From Methylococcales bacterium (GTDB lineage: Bacteria > Pseudomonadota > Gammaproteobacteria > Methylococcales > Methylomonadaceae), in NCBI GenBank assembly GCA_003584875.1, contig QVQD01000201.1, positions 1 to 33,108 on the forward strand: DNA of 33,108 nucleotides, read 5' to 3'. The notes under the pieces are model-generated. The model ran no database searches, was not told the origin of the DNA, and saw only the letters and a program-made list of their open reading frames with translations. Below, one piece after another: positions 1-5,665 of the stretch; the first letter of the stretch is position 1; every line of letters begins with the position of its first letter. The position numbers and the translations under genes were made by a program.

Positions 1-1005
1 TAAAGCCCTATTGAGTTTTAATAAAGGCTTCTTAGAGCCACAACGTGGCTTTAATTCTTCAATTAATTCATCATATAAATTTTTATAATCTTCAAAACTT
101 TTATTATCTTTAGCTATATTCTTATTTACTTTATCTGAAAAGATTTTTCGAAATCCTTCATCGTTTAGTGCATTTTCTATAGGAAATGAATTTGCTTGCC
201 CGGTTTTACATACCGCTTCAGAATTGAAGAGATCATTTAACGTATCTTTATTTGTTAGATCGATATCTTGTTCACTATATTTTTTTATATGCTCACTTAA
301 CCCTTTCGCCCAACCGTTTCGAAGAACTTCATTTTCTTTAACTTTTATAGCAGCAGAAACTGCAATTTTTTTTAATTCATCATCCGTTAGCGTACGGAAT
401 GAAAAAGGTAGCATAGCTTTATCTATAACTTCTTCTAAAAAATGGGATAATTTATCTGCTTTATAAAAATTCTCTAATTCTGGGTAACGTTTAATTAAAT
501 CATCTTCTGCTTTAATCAAATTGTTATAACAAGTAATTAACGGAGTCTTTTTTATTTCGTAGCCTAATTTTTGATATGCTTCTATACTTTTTTTGTTTAC
601 AACACAGTACTTTTCTTTATTAACTCTATTCAAGTAAATAGTTGAAATACCTTTACCAAAACCGATTTTTAAATCCTCAGACCACTCTAACCACTTATCC
701 ACATCAAAATCTTTTTCGAAGGGCAATAAAACTTGTGATCTAAAATTATTGAAGTTATCAGATTCTTCTTCAAGATATTTTATTACATCATCAACATTCC
801 TTTGACCGAGTGACTGAATACCCCCTCCATCTCGGATGAACTTTTCAAAAAAACTAATGAATTCATCTTTTTTTAGACCATTTAAATACTCATAATTTAT
901 TTCATATTTATATGAATCTTCTTTTTTAGAATGGTGATCATTTTTATACCACTCATTAAAAGCAGTTATGATTTCTTTCATATTTTGTGGCAACTTACTA
1001 TTCAT
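1..1005 (-). CDS. Partial AAA/McrB-like restriction protein candidate (N-terminal 335 residues)
   Basis: An open frame of 335 codons runs from an ATG at 1005 to the window edge without a stop, so the C-terminal part is missing. Its ATG overlaps the TGA of the upstream helicase gene in an ATGA junction, so the two are probably co-translated. The visible part is rich in Lys, Glu and Asn. At about residues 114-145 a stretch with GFGKG, then IYLNRV, then YCVVN, then LGY resembles the helix-hairpin-helix-like segment (glycine loop, hydrophobic helix, 'Y-x-I-x-N') found N-terminal to the ATPase in many McrB-type AAA+ restriction proteins. No Walker motif is visible; it would lie beyond the edge. 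The gene is visibly more AT-rich than the helicase, which suggests separate acquisition. That it is a gene is well supported; the McrB-like assignment is inference. Confidence 0.6.
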   Translation of the reverse strand, partial: MNSKLPQNMKEIITAFNEWYKNDHHSKKEDSYKYEINYEYLNGLKKDEFISFFEKFIRDGGGIQSLGQRNVDDVIKYLEEESDNFNNFRSQVLLPFEKDFDVDKWLEWSEDLKIGFGKGISTIYLNRVNKEKYCVVNKKSIEAYQKLGYEIKKTPLITCYNNLIKAEDDLIKRYPELENFYKADKLSHFLEEVIDKAMLPFSFRTLTDDELKKIAVSAAIKVKENEVLRNGWAKGLSEHIKKYSEQDIDLTNKDTLNDLFNSEAVCKTGQANSFPIENALNDEGFRKIFSDKVNKNIAKDNKSFEDYKNLYDELIEELKPRCGSKKPLLKLNRAL

Positions 1006-4000
1006 CTGCTTCCTATATCAGTATTTATTGTTAATCTACAAAACAACCCAACCTTAGCCATTTGCGCCAAGCTATTGACCTTGCACTGTTCCAAACCTTC
1101 ATTAGACACAATAATCGCTAAAGCTTGTGCGCGTGAAACCGCGACATTGAGTCGATTAATATCCAAAACAAAATCTAAGCCTCTGGGGGATTCTTCAATG
1201 TCGCTGACCGCCATGGAGATAATAACCACTGGCGCTTCTTGGCCTTGAAACTTGTCAATAGTGCCGATTTTTAAAGTGCTGGCGAGCTTTTCTTTAAGCA
1301 GATTGACCTGCATGTTGTAAGGGGCAATCACCAGTATATCGTCATCGGTGATGGGGTTTTGTTGTCCATCTTTGTTGGTAAAAGTGCCAGTTTTAAGTTC
1401 AGCGATTAGTTGCTGTACTAGCTGTGCTTCTTCTACACTGCTTTGGCTATTGCCTTCATGCTCTACGCTGACACTCAAGATGCCATGGGCTTTAGTAATC
1501 AAACTGGGTTTAGGGAGGGTGATGGTTTGTTTGCTGTTGTCGGCATCGGCTTGTAATTTACCTTCGTAAACTATCTCAGACAGTGGTGCGCACACCTCAG
1601 GATGCATACGATATGTGCGTTCCAGAAAGATGCCTTTATCGTCTGGAATTACGGCATGAGCCATTAACATAAATTCTAAGGCAGAACTACCCGATAGACC
1701 TGGATGTGAGCCTTGTATGGGTTGCTCTAATTGCATTTGATCACCCATTAGAATGATGTTTTTGGCTGCGCCCGATACCGCCAGTAAATTAGCCAAGGCG
1801 ACTTGACTGGCTTCATCTACAAACAAATAGTCAAAAGGTTGTTCATAAACCATTTCTTTAGCAAAAGCATAAACTGTTGCGCCAATCACTTGAAAAAACT
1901 CATAGGGTTGTTTTTTAGTAAAACCCATTTTGGGTCTATAAGCCAGTTGAGGATATTTTTCGGTAGGAAACTTTTCTTCAAATAAGGTTTGATTCTTGAA
2001 ACCATCGACCTTTGCCATTGGTATATCAGGTGATGATTTTGATACGGGTTCTAATAAATTCATGATGGCGGCATGACTATTCGACATAATGCCTACGCGA
2101 CAACCTTCCTTGATGAGTTGCGTAATCACTTTTTCAGCCGTATAGGTTTTACCTGCACCCGGTGGGCCTTGTATGCACAAACAAGTTTCGTCCATGGCTT
2201 TAACGGCAGTAATAATAGCGGACAGGTAATCGTCGTTATCAGGGTATTGCCGGCGTGAAATGGGCAGGGGTGATTGTTGCCCTGTAAAGCGTGGCTTAGC
2301 TTGGTTAATAATAGTGGCTAATAACTTGGGCAATTGCCGCGTTTCAAAATAGGCTTCGGTAATTTCGCAGAGTCTATTTTCTAGGTTATCGGTATTTATC
2401 CGCGCTTCATCAGCGAACAAGGTGAGCGGTAGCTGTTGTAATGCGTCTTGTTGGTCGGCATTAATCACAAAGCTAATTTGACTATAATGAGCATCATGCT
2501 CGGTTAGGGTAATCTTACTGACTTTTGCACTGGTGTCTTTAATAGTCGCTGTCTCTAGTTTATCGGTGCGCAGCGGTTGGTCATTTTTAAACAGCGCGAC
2601 ACAACTGATCTTGCCATCATTTTCTTGTTGACTGGTCAGGCTTAGATCAAAAACCACGGTATCATCGTCAAACAATTCTGAATCGGTTTTTTCTGCGCGT
2701 TGTAAATAAGTGAAGATTTTGGGTTTACGTTCACGATCATAAAAATGCAGTAGCGATACCAGTAATTCTGCCTGTTTGTCTGCTTTTAAATCAGCGTGTG
2801 CTTCAAACTGATCAAGCAACGCTTGTTGGCGTTGAATAAGTGCCTGGCGTTTTTGTTCATTTTCTAGTTGTCTATCTGTTTTTTCTAGTTCTTCTTTAGG
2901 GATGACTTCGCCGGCATTAAAACAGATATTATTGTTTTGTTGTTGGTCTCTTAGCCAAACCACAAGTTCTAGCGTTGATTCACAATCATCTATATTATAC
3001 GAGCGGATTTCTTGCAGCGTTGTCCAAGCTTGCCAATCAAACTGATCGGGATTTTCCAACCAACTTTGATAGCCATTCGCTTGCTCATTCCAATTTTCTA
3101 AACCACCCTGTGCATGCCAGTTTTCATAAAATACGATGGAGTCACTCCCATTAGCGACTTCTGTATCGCGCTTGCCGCGATAAAGATGCTCTACACTTTT
3201 AATCGAATAATTGGGTTCACCTATTAATAGCCCGCTTTTAACCACTTTATATAAATCCACAAAGACATGATTAGCTAACAGCTGGGCAACTTGATCTTTT
3301 CTGGTTTGATAGCGGTTAACCATTTTATGGATGGCGGTGATTTCATACGTCGCATAGTGATAAATATGCAGAGTAGGATCTTGTTGCCAGCGTTGATAGG
3401 ACCAATCAATAAAGCCTTCAAAGGCTAGTTTTTCTTGGTTTTGATCATGCGCCCACCAATCTTTAAAGGCATATTCTTTGCCCTGCGCGGCGTTTCTATC
3501 TTCATAACTCACGCCCCATAAATATTCAAGCCCACCCGTTACTAAAGGATGTCCTTCAATATCAAAATAAATATCTAGCTTAGATTTGGGCGGTAAGCCC
3601 GATAAGCCTTTGCCATCATTAGGCTTAAGCACATCAAATAGAGGTTTATCTTGGCCTCTGGATGCAAGTTGAATCGCTGCTTGTGCTTTGAGTTTATCAA
3701 AAGTGTCAGACGAGATGCCTTTGATGTCGGGTTGTTCACTAATGGCTAATTCACTTAAGGTGCTTACGCCAATGTCTTGTAATTTTTTAATCTGTGATTT
3801 ACGAATATTGGCGACTAACGCTAAGCTGTCGGATTTTTTCAGTTGCTCTTTAGCAAAGCTACTCCACACACCAAAGTCACTACATAAGGCCAAATCAGGC
3901 ATCATGGACCAATCACCTTGAAAGTCAGTTTGTGCTTTTAAGAATTGTGTCTTTAAGTTTAGAAAATAAGGGTAGTAGGCCGCTAACCGATAAGTATCTT

Positions 4001-4532
4001 GCTTTTTATTCCCTAGCACGACTACAGCATGTTCTGGCACTTTGCCTTGTGCGGTTTCAAGCATCCAGCTATAGCAACACAATTGAATAATAAAATAAGT
4101 TTTGGTGGATAACGAGAGCTTGGTATCCCAAGCTTCGTAGTAATAATCACCTAAGTTTGAATGTCCGGCTTTTTTTATTAAAAAGTCAGCAGAGCCAGCA
4201 AAGTTGTCACGCTCCAAATACGCTTGAAAGATCACTTGATAACCCACTTGCATGGCTTTTATAGTCTCTGCCGCTCTGGTTTCTTTGTCTTCGCTTATTT
4301 TGCAGACATTATCTGCACCTAAGTCTTGTTTGAATTGTTCAAAATAATGACCCTCATGTTGTAAGCCTTTATCAGCTAACAAGCTCATCATTTTGTCTTG
4401 GTCTTTTTCAATGCCCGCTAGTTGTTCTGGTTTATCTACGGCTAAACGAGCCATCCAAGAAGCAAAGGCTGAGCGTTCAAATAAAACTAAATCTGAGGGC
4501 GAATAAGTGTAAGTGTTTAGATTTTTATACAT
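1002..4532 (-). CDS. TM0106-type RecB-like nuclease / DEDD exonuclease / SF1 helicase fusion
   Basis: A 1176-residue three-part enzyme acting on nucleic acid. Residues 1-300 form a RecB/Cas4-like PD-(D/E)xK nuclease: GSAD with D116, then D136-T-K138, then a Q-x3-Y-x2-ML signature near 149-156. Residues about 320-545 look like an RNase H-fold DEDD exonuclease (YprB/RNase_H_2 type): D-I-E-G-H-P, later HYATYE, and YNIDDCEST. Residues about 770-1160 are an SF1 (Dna2/Upf1-like, AAA_11/AAA_12) helicase: GPPGAGKT near 788, DEAS near 905, MGDQMQLEQP, ERTYRMHP, TIDKFQGQE and a LNVAVSRA arginine-finger motif near 1131. It leads a likely two-gene operon with the AAA/McrB-like gene. This architecture is a known but poorly characterised bacterial family; a role in DNA defence or repair is inferred from the partner gene. 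Confidence 0.9.
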   Translation of the reverse strand: MYKNLNTYTYSPSDLVLFERSAFASWMARLAVDKPEQLAGIEKDQDKMMSLLADKGLQHEGHYFEQFKQDLGADNVCKISEDKETRAAETIKAMQVGYQVIFQAYLERDNFAGSADFLIKKAGHSNLGDYYYEAWDTKLSLSTKTYFIIQLCCYSWMLETAQGKVPEHAVVVLGNKKQDTYRLAAYYPYFLNLKTQFLKAQTDFQGDWSMMPDLALCSDFGVWSSFAKEQLKKSDSLALVANIRKSQIKKLQDIGVSTLSELAISEQPDIKGISSDTFDKLKAQAAIQLASRGQDKPLFDVLKPNDGKGLSGLPPKSKLDIYFDIEGHPLVTGGLEYLWGVSYEDRNAAQGKEYAFKDWWAHDQNQEKLAFEGFIDWSYQRWQQDPTLHIYHYATYEITAIHKMVNRYQTRKDQVAQLLANHVFVDLYKVVKSGLLIGEPNYSIKSVEHLYRGKRDTEVANGSDSIVFYENWHAQGGLENWNEQANGYQSWLENPDQFDWQAWTTLQEIRSYNIDDCESTLELVVWLRDQQQNNNICFNAGEVIPKEELEKTDRQLENEQKRQALIQRQQALLDQFEAHADLKADKQAELLVSLLHFYDRERKPKIFTYLQRAEKTDSELFDDDTVVFDLSLTSQQENDGKISCVALFKNDQPLRTDKLETATIKDTSAKVSKITLTEHDAHYSQISFVINADQQDALQQLPLTLFADEARINTDNLENRLCEITEAYFETRQLPKLLATIINQAKPRFTGQQSPLPISRRQYPDNDDYLSAIITAVKAMDETCLCIQGPPGAGKTYTAEKVITQLIKEGCRVGIMSNSHAAIMNLLEPVSKSSPDIPMAKVDGFKNQTLFEEKFPTEKYPQLAYRPKMGFTKKQPYEFFQVIGATVYAFAKEMVYEQPFDYLFVDEASQVALANLLAVSGAAKNIILMGDQMQLEQPIQGSHPGLSGSSALEFMLMAHAVIPDDKGIFLERTYRMHPEVCAPLSEIVYEGKLQADADNSKQTITLPKPSLITKAHGILSVSVEHEGNSQSSVEEAQLVQQLIAELKTGTFTNKDGQQNPITDDDILVIAPYNMQVNLLKEKLASTLKIGTIDKFQGQEAPVVIISMAVSDIEESPRGLDFVLDINRLNVAVSRAQALAIIVSNEGLEQCKVNSLAQMAKVGLFCRLTINTDIGSR

Positions 4533-4671: not shown

Positions 4672-4795
4672 AGCTGTAGGCCGGAATAAGACTACCCAAG
4701 CGTAGCGCGTGGTAGCGTTTCCGGCACAGGAGCATTGTCTATGCCGGAAACGCTTTACTCGCTGTCGCTCGAAAGCCTTATTCCGGCCTACAGCT
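4672..4795. repeat. REP-like nested palindrome
   Basis: Two perfect 19-bp inverted arms, AGCTGTAGGCCGGAATAAG at 4672-4690 and its complement at 4777-4795, enclose a second perfect 13-bp stem (AGCGTTTCCGGCA at 4714-4726 with 4742-4754). The outer arm resembles enterobacterial REP heads (CTTAT-CCGGCCTAC). The element lies just upstream of the helicase gene and past the end of the repeat-protein gene. Open frames across it are artefacts of the palindrome. Confidence 0.8.
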
Positions 4796-4838: not shown

Positions 4839-5378
4839 CTACATATTTTCTAACCTAGATTTGGCTAACTGTACAACATGTGGATCAGTGTGCGTCAGTA
4901 ATTTCTTAAGTATCTTTTTTGGGGCTCTGTAATTATCAGCCAAACTAGCAACGACTGAAGGGTCTTCATGACTAGCTAGCAAGTTGGCTAATTTGATAAC
5001 ATCGGCTTCTTGAAATGTTTCAACATCTCTAGCAATCGATTGCGCTATGTTTACATCTAAATTGATTAACTTTTCAAGCACTTCATGGCTTACATGCTCT
5101 CTAAAAGCATTTGATCTTAATAAATTTCTCAATACGGACACTGAGGTATCTTTTTCTAAAATATCTAACACTTCTGCGCTTAAATGGTCTTTATAAGCTA
5201 AATTTTCACGCACATTAGAAGCTGGATGTTTTGCCGCTAGTAGAAAAAAGTCATTGCTGTCGTCATGGTCTGGATAATTATTGATAATATCTGCAAGGGC
5301 ATCATAAGACAGAGGTGCAGTAAAAACCTCTTTGCCATCTTCGGTAGCCTGTATAGTAAATTGTATATTTGAACGCAT
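4839..5378 (-). CDS. Leucine-rich-variant (LRV)/HEAT-like repeat protein
   Basis: A 179-residue protein of no known function. After an N-terminal segment (about 1-45) it consists of helical repeats of about 24-30 residues, each beginning with a pattern like D/H-P-x3-V-R-x2-L-A and continuing with a Leu-rich helix pair; at least four units can be followed to the C-terminus. This is the pattern of LRV or HEAT-like scaffolds, which bind other proteins; no catalytic motif is visible. The ATG at 5378 is chosen because an AGGAGA ribosome site lies 8 bases upstream; a frame extension to 5411 lacks one. No signal peptide or membrane segment, so cytoplasmic. It stands alone, separated from the helicase gene by the REP-like palindrome. 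Confidence 0.8.
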   Translation of the reverse strand: MRSNIQFTIQATEDGKEVFTAPLSYDALADIINNYPDHDDSNDFFLLAAKHPASNVRENLAYKDHLSAEVLDILEKDTSVSVLRNLLRSNAFREHVSHEVLEKLINLDVNIAQSIARDVETFQEADVIKLANLLASHEDPSVVASLADNYRAPKKILKKLLTHTDPHVVQLAKSRLENM

Positions 5379-5665
5379 TTGTATTTCTCCTAAAGTTATT
5401 AAAGAAATCAATATACTAAAAGCTGATCACCTTGTTTGATTACGCAGAATCAGTTTAAAATTGATATTGTATTAAATAATTGTTACAGGGCTTTTATTTA
5501 AAGCTTGGTTTATTATTTCTCATTAATACGACAAATAATGACCTATTTAGTTATTGAAAGTTATTTATGATTAATAGCTTTGATTGCCTAGGTATGGGGT
5601 AGATATGAATAGCGCCATTAGCGTGGTGCGATACCTAATAATCGCGTGAACTTTTAGAGTAGCCA

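Follow-up and report, generated by a model that had tools for sequence, protein, structure and literature searches.

Recurrence of a TM0106-family nuclease-exonuclease-helicase beside McrBC suggests an undescribed variant of type IV restriction

The window analysed here is a stretch of 33,108 nucleotides, equal to contig C14 of a draft genome of 3.03 Mb (labelled G000) that has Methylococcaceae and Crenothrix as its nearest named kin. At one end it encodes a TM0106-family protein with nuclease, exonuclease and helicase domains, whose gene overlaps the start of a gene for the N-terminal part of an McrB-like protein (Table 1). The same pairing occurs in distantly related bacteria, which suggests an undescribed McrBC variant that would also shred the foreign DNA it has cut.

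Table 1. Features of the TM0106-McrB locus; coordinates are those of the window unless another contig is named.
Feature	Coordinates	Strand	Basis
TM0106/COG2251-family nuclease-exonuclease-helicase, 1176 aa	1002..4532	-	Reading frame, TIGR03491, Pfam, AlphaFold2, Foldseek
RecB/Cas4-like PD-(D/E)xK nuclease domain	3918..4532	-	TIGR03491, weak Cas4 matches, conservation
DEDDy 3'-5' exonuclease-like domain (RNase_H_2), residues 321-527	2952..3572	-	PF13482, conservation
UPF1/Dna2-like SF1 helicase core, ∼residues 764-1149 (GPPGAGKT, DEASQ)	1086..2243	-	AAA_11/AAA_12, Foldseek
ATGA stop/start overlap of the TM0106 and McrB genes	1002..1005	-	4 nt shared
McrB N-terminal part, 335 aa, cut by the contig end; probable target-recognition modules	1..1005	-	Identity to G012 and G118, continuation on C129
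McrB module A, residues 1-206, common to G012, not to G118 or G214	388..1005	-	Sequence identity
McrB module B, residues 204-335, common to G118 and G214, not to G012	1..396	-	Sequence identity
Aligned McrB continuation (locus L132)	G000:C129:6458-8617	-	Family alignment

The TM0106 protein

A first-pass annotation of this DNA had described a single chain combining a PD-(D/E)xK nuclease, a DEDD exonuclease and an SF1 helicase, each with its catalytic residues, and the reading frame, the domain matches and residue conservation all bear this out. The protein is a member of the TM0106 family, as it scores 217 bits over residues 79-527 against TIGR03491 (TM0106-family RecB-like nuclease), where the curated cut-off is 97.45. 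Its nuclease domain (∼residues 1-205, border drawn by eye) carries the key residues D116, D136-x-K138 and Q150-Y154, and is followed by an RNase_H_2 domain (PF13482, 79.7 bits, residues 321-527) and a helicase region matched by AAA_11 and AAA_12 (110.9 bits for the latter, residues 964-1144), on which an IGHMBP2-family helicase model scores under its own cut-off. In a 42-row alignment of the window protein and 41 of 54 listed relatives, D116, K138, Q150 and Y154 of the nuclease, D324, E326, D426, Y512 and D516 of the DEDDy domain, and G789, G794, K795, D906, E907, Q910, R975, Q1096, R1127 and R1134 of the helicase are invariant, while H59 (39/42), D136 (41/42) and T796 (39/42) are nearly so. 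Judged by these motifs, the catalytic residues of all three enzyme domains are intact.

The AlphaFold2 model of the chain (mean pLDDT 87, pTM 0.81) finds Dna2 as its top match by E-value in a Foldseek search of the PDB (E 4e-28). Like TM0106, Dna2 joins a RecB-like nuclease and an SF1B helicase in one chain; we know of no DEDD domain in Dna2. Over the whole chain the match is weak (TM 0.34-0.37, rmsd 26), so the likeness is confined to the domain plan. The nearest solved helicases also include UPF1, IGHMBP2 and senataxin, and helicases of this branch are known to run in the 5'-3' direction.

The McrB partner and its continuation on a second contig

The stop codon of the TM0106 gene (1004-1002) and the ATG of the partner (1005-1003) overlap just as the first reading had them. 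The McrB-like call on this partner had been made from a short segment of its N-terminus. The 335-aa fragment matches no Pfam or PADLOC family that would mark it, and its AlphaFold2 model is of low confidence (pLDDT 40). Relatives of the fragment were found neither in plasmids and phages by tblastn nor in genome contigs by peptide patterns, and a search of 201 genomes returned two besides the window. Matches to PdaC, gltX, enolase and RaiA in Pfam, NCBIfam and the PDB were weak and judged to be due to chance.

The rest of the gene appears to lie on contig C129 of the same genome, which, taken in the same orientation, starts at the next aligned residue when the McrB of genome G118 is taken as reference: G118 reads ...RALCALFPEHF..., the window ends in ...RAL, and C129 begins with CALFPEHF.... 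We infer this junction rather than read it, and the assignment of the window gene to McrBC hangs on it. Leftward extension had been proposed as the way to look for Walker A, NxxD and McrC, and C129 holds all three: an McrB continuation with GPPGTGKT and MNTADR (AAA_5, 58.3 bits) and, overlapping it, an McrC gene (PF10117, 207.9 bits) that keeps the PD...DTKW motif. These are the features by which a type IV McrBC system is recognized, namely an AAA+ protein with Walker A and NxxD and an adjacent McrC with PF10117 and a PD-(D/E)xK nuclease. On C129, McrC is followed by a 99-aa gene, which shares 91% identity with the gene in that position in genome G214. In the sister genome G012 the operon is complete, and its identity as TM0106-McrB-McrC is close to certain; across the presumed junction, the same identity is very likely at the window locus.

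A further McrC piece in the window genome is broken by an inner stop (contig C4, locus L133, 2528-3055), and G118 holds a TM0106 piece with an inner stop (L027, 827-1381). Each lies near a WYL-like gene, as judged by eye, in similar neighbourhoods, and the two pieces are perhaps traces of a decayed second copy.

Recurrence of the pairing

Within the genus, TM0106 is present in 8 of 35 genomes and is followed by McrB in six of these eight (G000, G118, G211 as a piece, G012, G062 and G214), G154 and G127 being the two without a downstream McrB. G062 has TM0106, a 150-aa ORF, McrB and McrC in order, with McrC cut by the contig end, and G214 has TM0106-McrB-McrC, with TM0106 cut by the contig end.

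In named genomes, we scanned the best 80 of 412 TM0106 relatives, a choice that leans to near kin. McrB lies downstream on the same strand at 15 of these 80 loci, in lineages from Gamma- and Betaproteobacteria to Verrucomicrobia; the 15 include G118, G012 and G214 again and four Acinetobacter with near-identical TM0106. The pair is thus not unique to this genome. McrC is visible at 12 of the 15, the contigs ending first at the other three. McrB is the very next ORF in nine and separated by one or two small ORFs in six; at 14 of the 15 loci, the ORF that follows TM0106 begins -30 to 70 bp past the end of that gene. When chained neighbours were clustered, McrB formed the largest cluster (19 members, split-off modules included), followed by McrC with 12 and the next with 5, with the limit that, at loci of high G+C content, a few genes may be masked by the ORF-overlap filter of the locus and chain scans. 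The other 65 of the best 80 relatives have no McrB or McrC match within four ORFs on either side, and at 12 of them the contig ends within 1.5 kb downstream of TM0106.

Conserved co-occurrence, a check already suggested for the pair, is also seen across the phylum. The McrC (1e-20) and TM0106 (1e-60) surveys had the same sample size and genome handles and were therefore treated as one sample, of 398 genomes with that of the window (34 with McrC, 17 with TM0106) and 397 without it. In the latter, 16 genomes have TM0106, 33 have McrC and 9 have both (Fisher 5e-7). In 7 of the 9 (G778, G825, G871, G971, G983, G1023 and G1036) the two genes lie within 10 kb by coordinates compared by hand; in G833 and G858 they are on different contigs, and since the G858 match covers the helicase part only (643-aa frame), the counts without it are 8 genomes with both and 7 of 8 within 10 kb. 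The seven close loci comprise three with the order TM0106-McrB-McrC, one with McrB-McrC-TM0106 and three that are not contiguous on one strand. N6_Mtase (PF02384) served as a control for the clustering of defence genes in general. Twelve of the 16 genomes with TM0106 also have this family; one of the twelve (G825) has it within 10 kb of TM0106, and in G778 it is ∼12 kb away. The difference between 7/9 and 1/12 gives p 0.002; one family is a thin control, draft assemblies hide some neighbours, and both p-values are optimistic as the sampled genomes are related.

Apparent exchange of McrB modules and McrBC cassettes

The two modules of the window McrB have different closest relatives, residues 1-206 being 63% identical to the McrB of G012 and residues 204-335 being 76% identical to that of G118. 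The McrC of the window system shares only 25% identity with the McrC proteins of G012 and G214, whereas TM0106 is 78% identical in G012, 87% in G214 (piece) and 88% in G118, so that close TM0106 relatives stand beside different McrBC cassettes. It appears from these identities that TM0106 is stable while the recognition modules beside it, and even the McrBC cassette, have been exchanged. One or two small ORFs separate TM0106 from McrB at L059, L079, L093, L097, L103, L104 and in G062; those of L059 and G062 cluster with McrB proteins, as expected of split-off modules.

Trees of both partners point to repeated changes in the pairing. On a FastTree phylogeny of 94 TM0106 sequences of at least 1050 aa (shorter loci including G214, two duplicates and the phylum sample left out), the McrBC label (17 rows) requires at least 8 changes, against a mean of 15.9 when shuffled. 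On a quick tree of 43 McrC matches of 250-600 aa, in which several branches are long, that of the window's McrC included, the TM0106 label (21 rows) requires 7 changes (at least 6 by starred branches), against a shuffled mean of 14.7. By these label counts, the pairing is repeatedly gained or lost on both sides, gain and loss looking alike, and more rarely than at random.

Of 72,556 plasmid records, 77 carry relatives of TM0106. IMG/VR returned 27 TM0106 loci, of which 6 match the nuclease part and one of these six has McrBC: on the prophage-like contig L170 (4946-13122), a complete set of TM0106, a 162-aa ORF, McrB and McrC is carried as cargo between a terminase gene and genes for a ParB-like protein and an integrase. 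A separate phage sequence set gave no TM0106 match at 1e-20.

TM0106 beside other genes

We examined what stands beside TM0106 at 76 loci without McrBC (7 near-duplicates left out), taking on each side the nearest ORF of 100-1499 aa within 1.5 kb, with the top 25 families per tally; 138 of the 139 listed neighbours were scanned, the omitted one being part of the TM0106 gene itself. Six of them match WYL regulators, and GajB, HerA, mads and other PADLOC families are matched once or twice each; PADLOC models match ordinary genes too, so these neighbours show a tendency only. The possibility that the fusion is found mostly alone, in housekeeping contexts, is borne out in part: it stands without McrBC at 65 of the best 80 of 412 relatives, but many of its neighbours match defence families. 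TM0106 seems to be a reusable end-processing module, found also alone or beside other defence genes.

Four of the 138 neighbours, all in kin of the window, belong to the UDG superfamily, and at L024, L028, L029 and L030 TM0106 is followed by a UDG-superfamily gene and then by one of 129-133 aa. The UDG-superfamily gene is a second recurrent partner and possibly another sensor of modified bases. In G154 (L022, 1776-7768), the place of McrB is taken, 21 bp after TM0106, by a protein of 815 aa that combines 5'-3' exonuclease, Sel1 and Lcl_C domains. On the Vibrio tubiashii plasmid p123 (L007), BREX genes lie upstream and a gene for a TrlF-type ATPase overlaps TM0106. A contig of the 'Dehalococcoidia' UBA1332 (L052) is 98.1% identical to L007 over 17.4 kb, through either contamination of the metagenome-assembled genome or very recent transfer.

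Tentatively, one may go further and picture TM0106 as a swappable DNA-shredding core, repeatedly recruited by sensors of abnormal DNA into a class of two-stage restriction systems; the sensors could then be McrBC in several lineages, the UDG-superfamily gene in Methylococcaceae relatives and the TrlF-type ATPase in Vibrio. If this is true, a sensor would make the first lesion and one Dna2-like enzyme would destroy the molecule.

Surroundings of the locus

Part of the early case for a defence island is not supported. The McrB fragment has a G+C content of 28.5%, against 41.3% for the fusion gene, and McrB is also below TM0106 in all five other loci measured (only slightly in L120), so the contrast in base composition is usual. 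The MITE-like element itself is real (4672-4795; arms of 22 nt, inverted, at 4672-4693 and 4774-4795). With up to 3 mismatches allowed, however, the arm sequence is matched 190 times across the 3 Mb genome and its reversed control not at all; the element therefore says nothing about an island, and we rejected it as evidence of one. Of the 30 window ORFs of at least 100 aa, 10 further ones were scanned, and eight match housekeeping families (queC, tolB, TolA-binding/TPR, argA-like, ilvD, class III aminotransferase, gyrB and argS); the other two are one with a PIN domain and one (4839-5411) without a match.

The latter gene, whose window copy has no Pfam match, resembles by eye genes of 178-196 aa at L005 (5026-5562), L006 (6333-6923) and L014 (4640-5176). 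In sister genomes it flanks the system, now on one side and now on the other, and may mark an insertion spot.

Of the candidate defence pair, the identity of McrB and the recurrence of the pairing stand, as does the lack of a named system with this pair in our searches; neither the MITE/REP elements nor the base composition support an island.

Relationship to known systems

The system shares with canonical McrBC (type IV, NxxD branch) the AAA+ motifs GPPGTGKT and MNTADR, the overlapping McrC with PF10117 and PD...DTKW, and variable N-terminal modules, and differs in that a third gene, TM0106, leads the operon. It is most likely a variant of type IV restriction and not a new kind of system. The window protein has the full domain set of TM0106/TIGR03491/COG2251, and the fusion as such is already published: the accessible part of a 2014 study notes PD-(D/E)XK, RNase H-like and AAA domains in COG2251, giving the family neither partner nor role (PMC3985635), whereas here it is tied to McrBC.

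The CoCoNuTs of types II and III (CnuH-CnuB-CnuC) likewise encode an SF1 UPF1-like helicase with McrB and McrC relatives. According to the portion of the McrBC survey available to us, CoCoNuT GTPases carry NxD together with coiled coils, while the McrB on C129 reads NTAD, that is NxxD, and so falls outside that definition; CnuH carries OB-fold, SmpB-like, RNase-toxin-like or wHTH domains, with a Vsr-type nuclease in type III-B, and that portion does not mention for CnuH the pair of RecB-like and DEDD domains present in TM0106 (PMC11090510). The survey has nearly 34,000 homologs in its McrBC tree; the associations it lists are with type I restriction-modification, DISARM-like genes and methyltransferases, and neither TM0106 nor RNase H occurs in its main text (PMC11090510). 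A term search of the main texts of the YprA (PMC12458937) and BREX (PMC12839542) papers did not find TM0106, and CMoRE, considered as an overlapping system, proved unrelated in the part accessible to us (PMC12923530).

In PADLOC-DB 2.0.0, the helicase region of TM0106 matches MkoA, MkoC, DpdJ and others and its nuclease region weakly matches Cas4; no protein of a named anti-phage system matches TM0106 over its whole chain. Neither PADLOC nor our literature search gave a named defence system with this pair; the latter found no published description of TM0106 with McrBC and whose reach mostly excluded subscription papers and preprints.

Discussion

We consider it somewhat probable that the operon is a variant of type IV restriction in which McrBC cuts modified DNA and TM0106 would degrade the ends, and TM0106, McrB and McrC probably work jointly. 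The variable N-terminal modules of McrB would read a feature of modified or foreign DNA, upon which the GTP-driven McrB ring and McrC would make a break. TM0106 would load at the ends, unwind them with its SF1B helicase and degrade both strands with its RecB-like nuclease and 3'-5' exonuclease, turning cutting into irreversible destruction. Gene order, the overlap, the catalytic motifs of the three proteins and recurrence across lineages can be read in the sequences; we infer the cut-then-shred mechanism from the enzyme classes. The Dna2 top match, the cargo of L170 and the PADLOC families near McrBC-less TM0106 also favour a joint system, and the loci without McrBC (65 of the best 80 of 412), the varied order in the phylum sample and the weakness of the Dna2 match count against it.

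Those same loci without McrBC are what would be expected if TM0106 and McrBC were two independent defence systems, each acting alone and sharing an island through the general clustering of defence genes, as are the assorted defence families among the 138 other neighbours (WYL 6, mads, GajB, HerA) and an order or strand unlike TM0106-McrB-McrC in four of the seven close sample loci. Independence would not readily explain the 4-nt overlap here and the short gaps elsewhere, nor why McrB recurs far more often than any other chain partner while the N6_Mtase control is near TM0106 in just one of the 12 genomes holding both, and we hold it to be rather unlikely.

McrBC can cut wrongly modified host DNA, and the Dna2/RecB-like make-up of TM0106 would also suit a guard of the host that resects such breaks or otherwise limits toxicity. 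RecBCD- or AddAB-type enzymes are common in bacteria for such breaks, however, and the sparse distribution of TM0106 (8 of 35 genus genomes) suits defence better than repair, which makes this role improbable.

It is more improbable still that RNA or RNA-DNA hybrids are the substrate of the helicase-nuclease, as has been suggested for CnuH, the UPF1-like helicase that CoCoNuTs pair with McrB and McrC relatives (PMC11090510, accessible part): UPF1, IGHMBP2 and senataxin are indeed among the nearest solved helicases, but the C129 McrB has NxxD and not the CoCoNuT NxD, its McrC keeps PD...DTKW, and DNA is indicated both by the RecB-like domain and by the fold match with the best E-value.

The fate of DNA after cutting by McrBC is usually left to host exonucleases. 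In the type IV variant that we favour, a dedicated nuclease-helicase in the McrBC operon would make degradation part of the system itself. This would show evolution in parallel with the CoCoNuTs, in which a different UPF1-like helicase came together with McrBC relatives, and it would assign a role to TM0106/COG2251, a widely annotated and functionally blank family.
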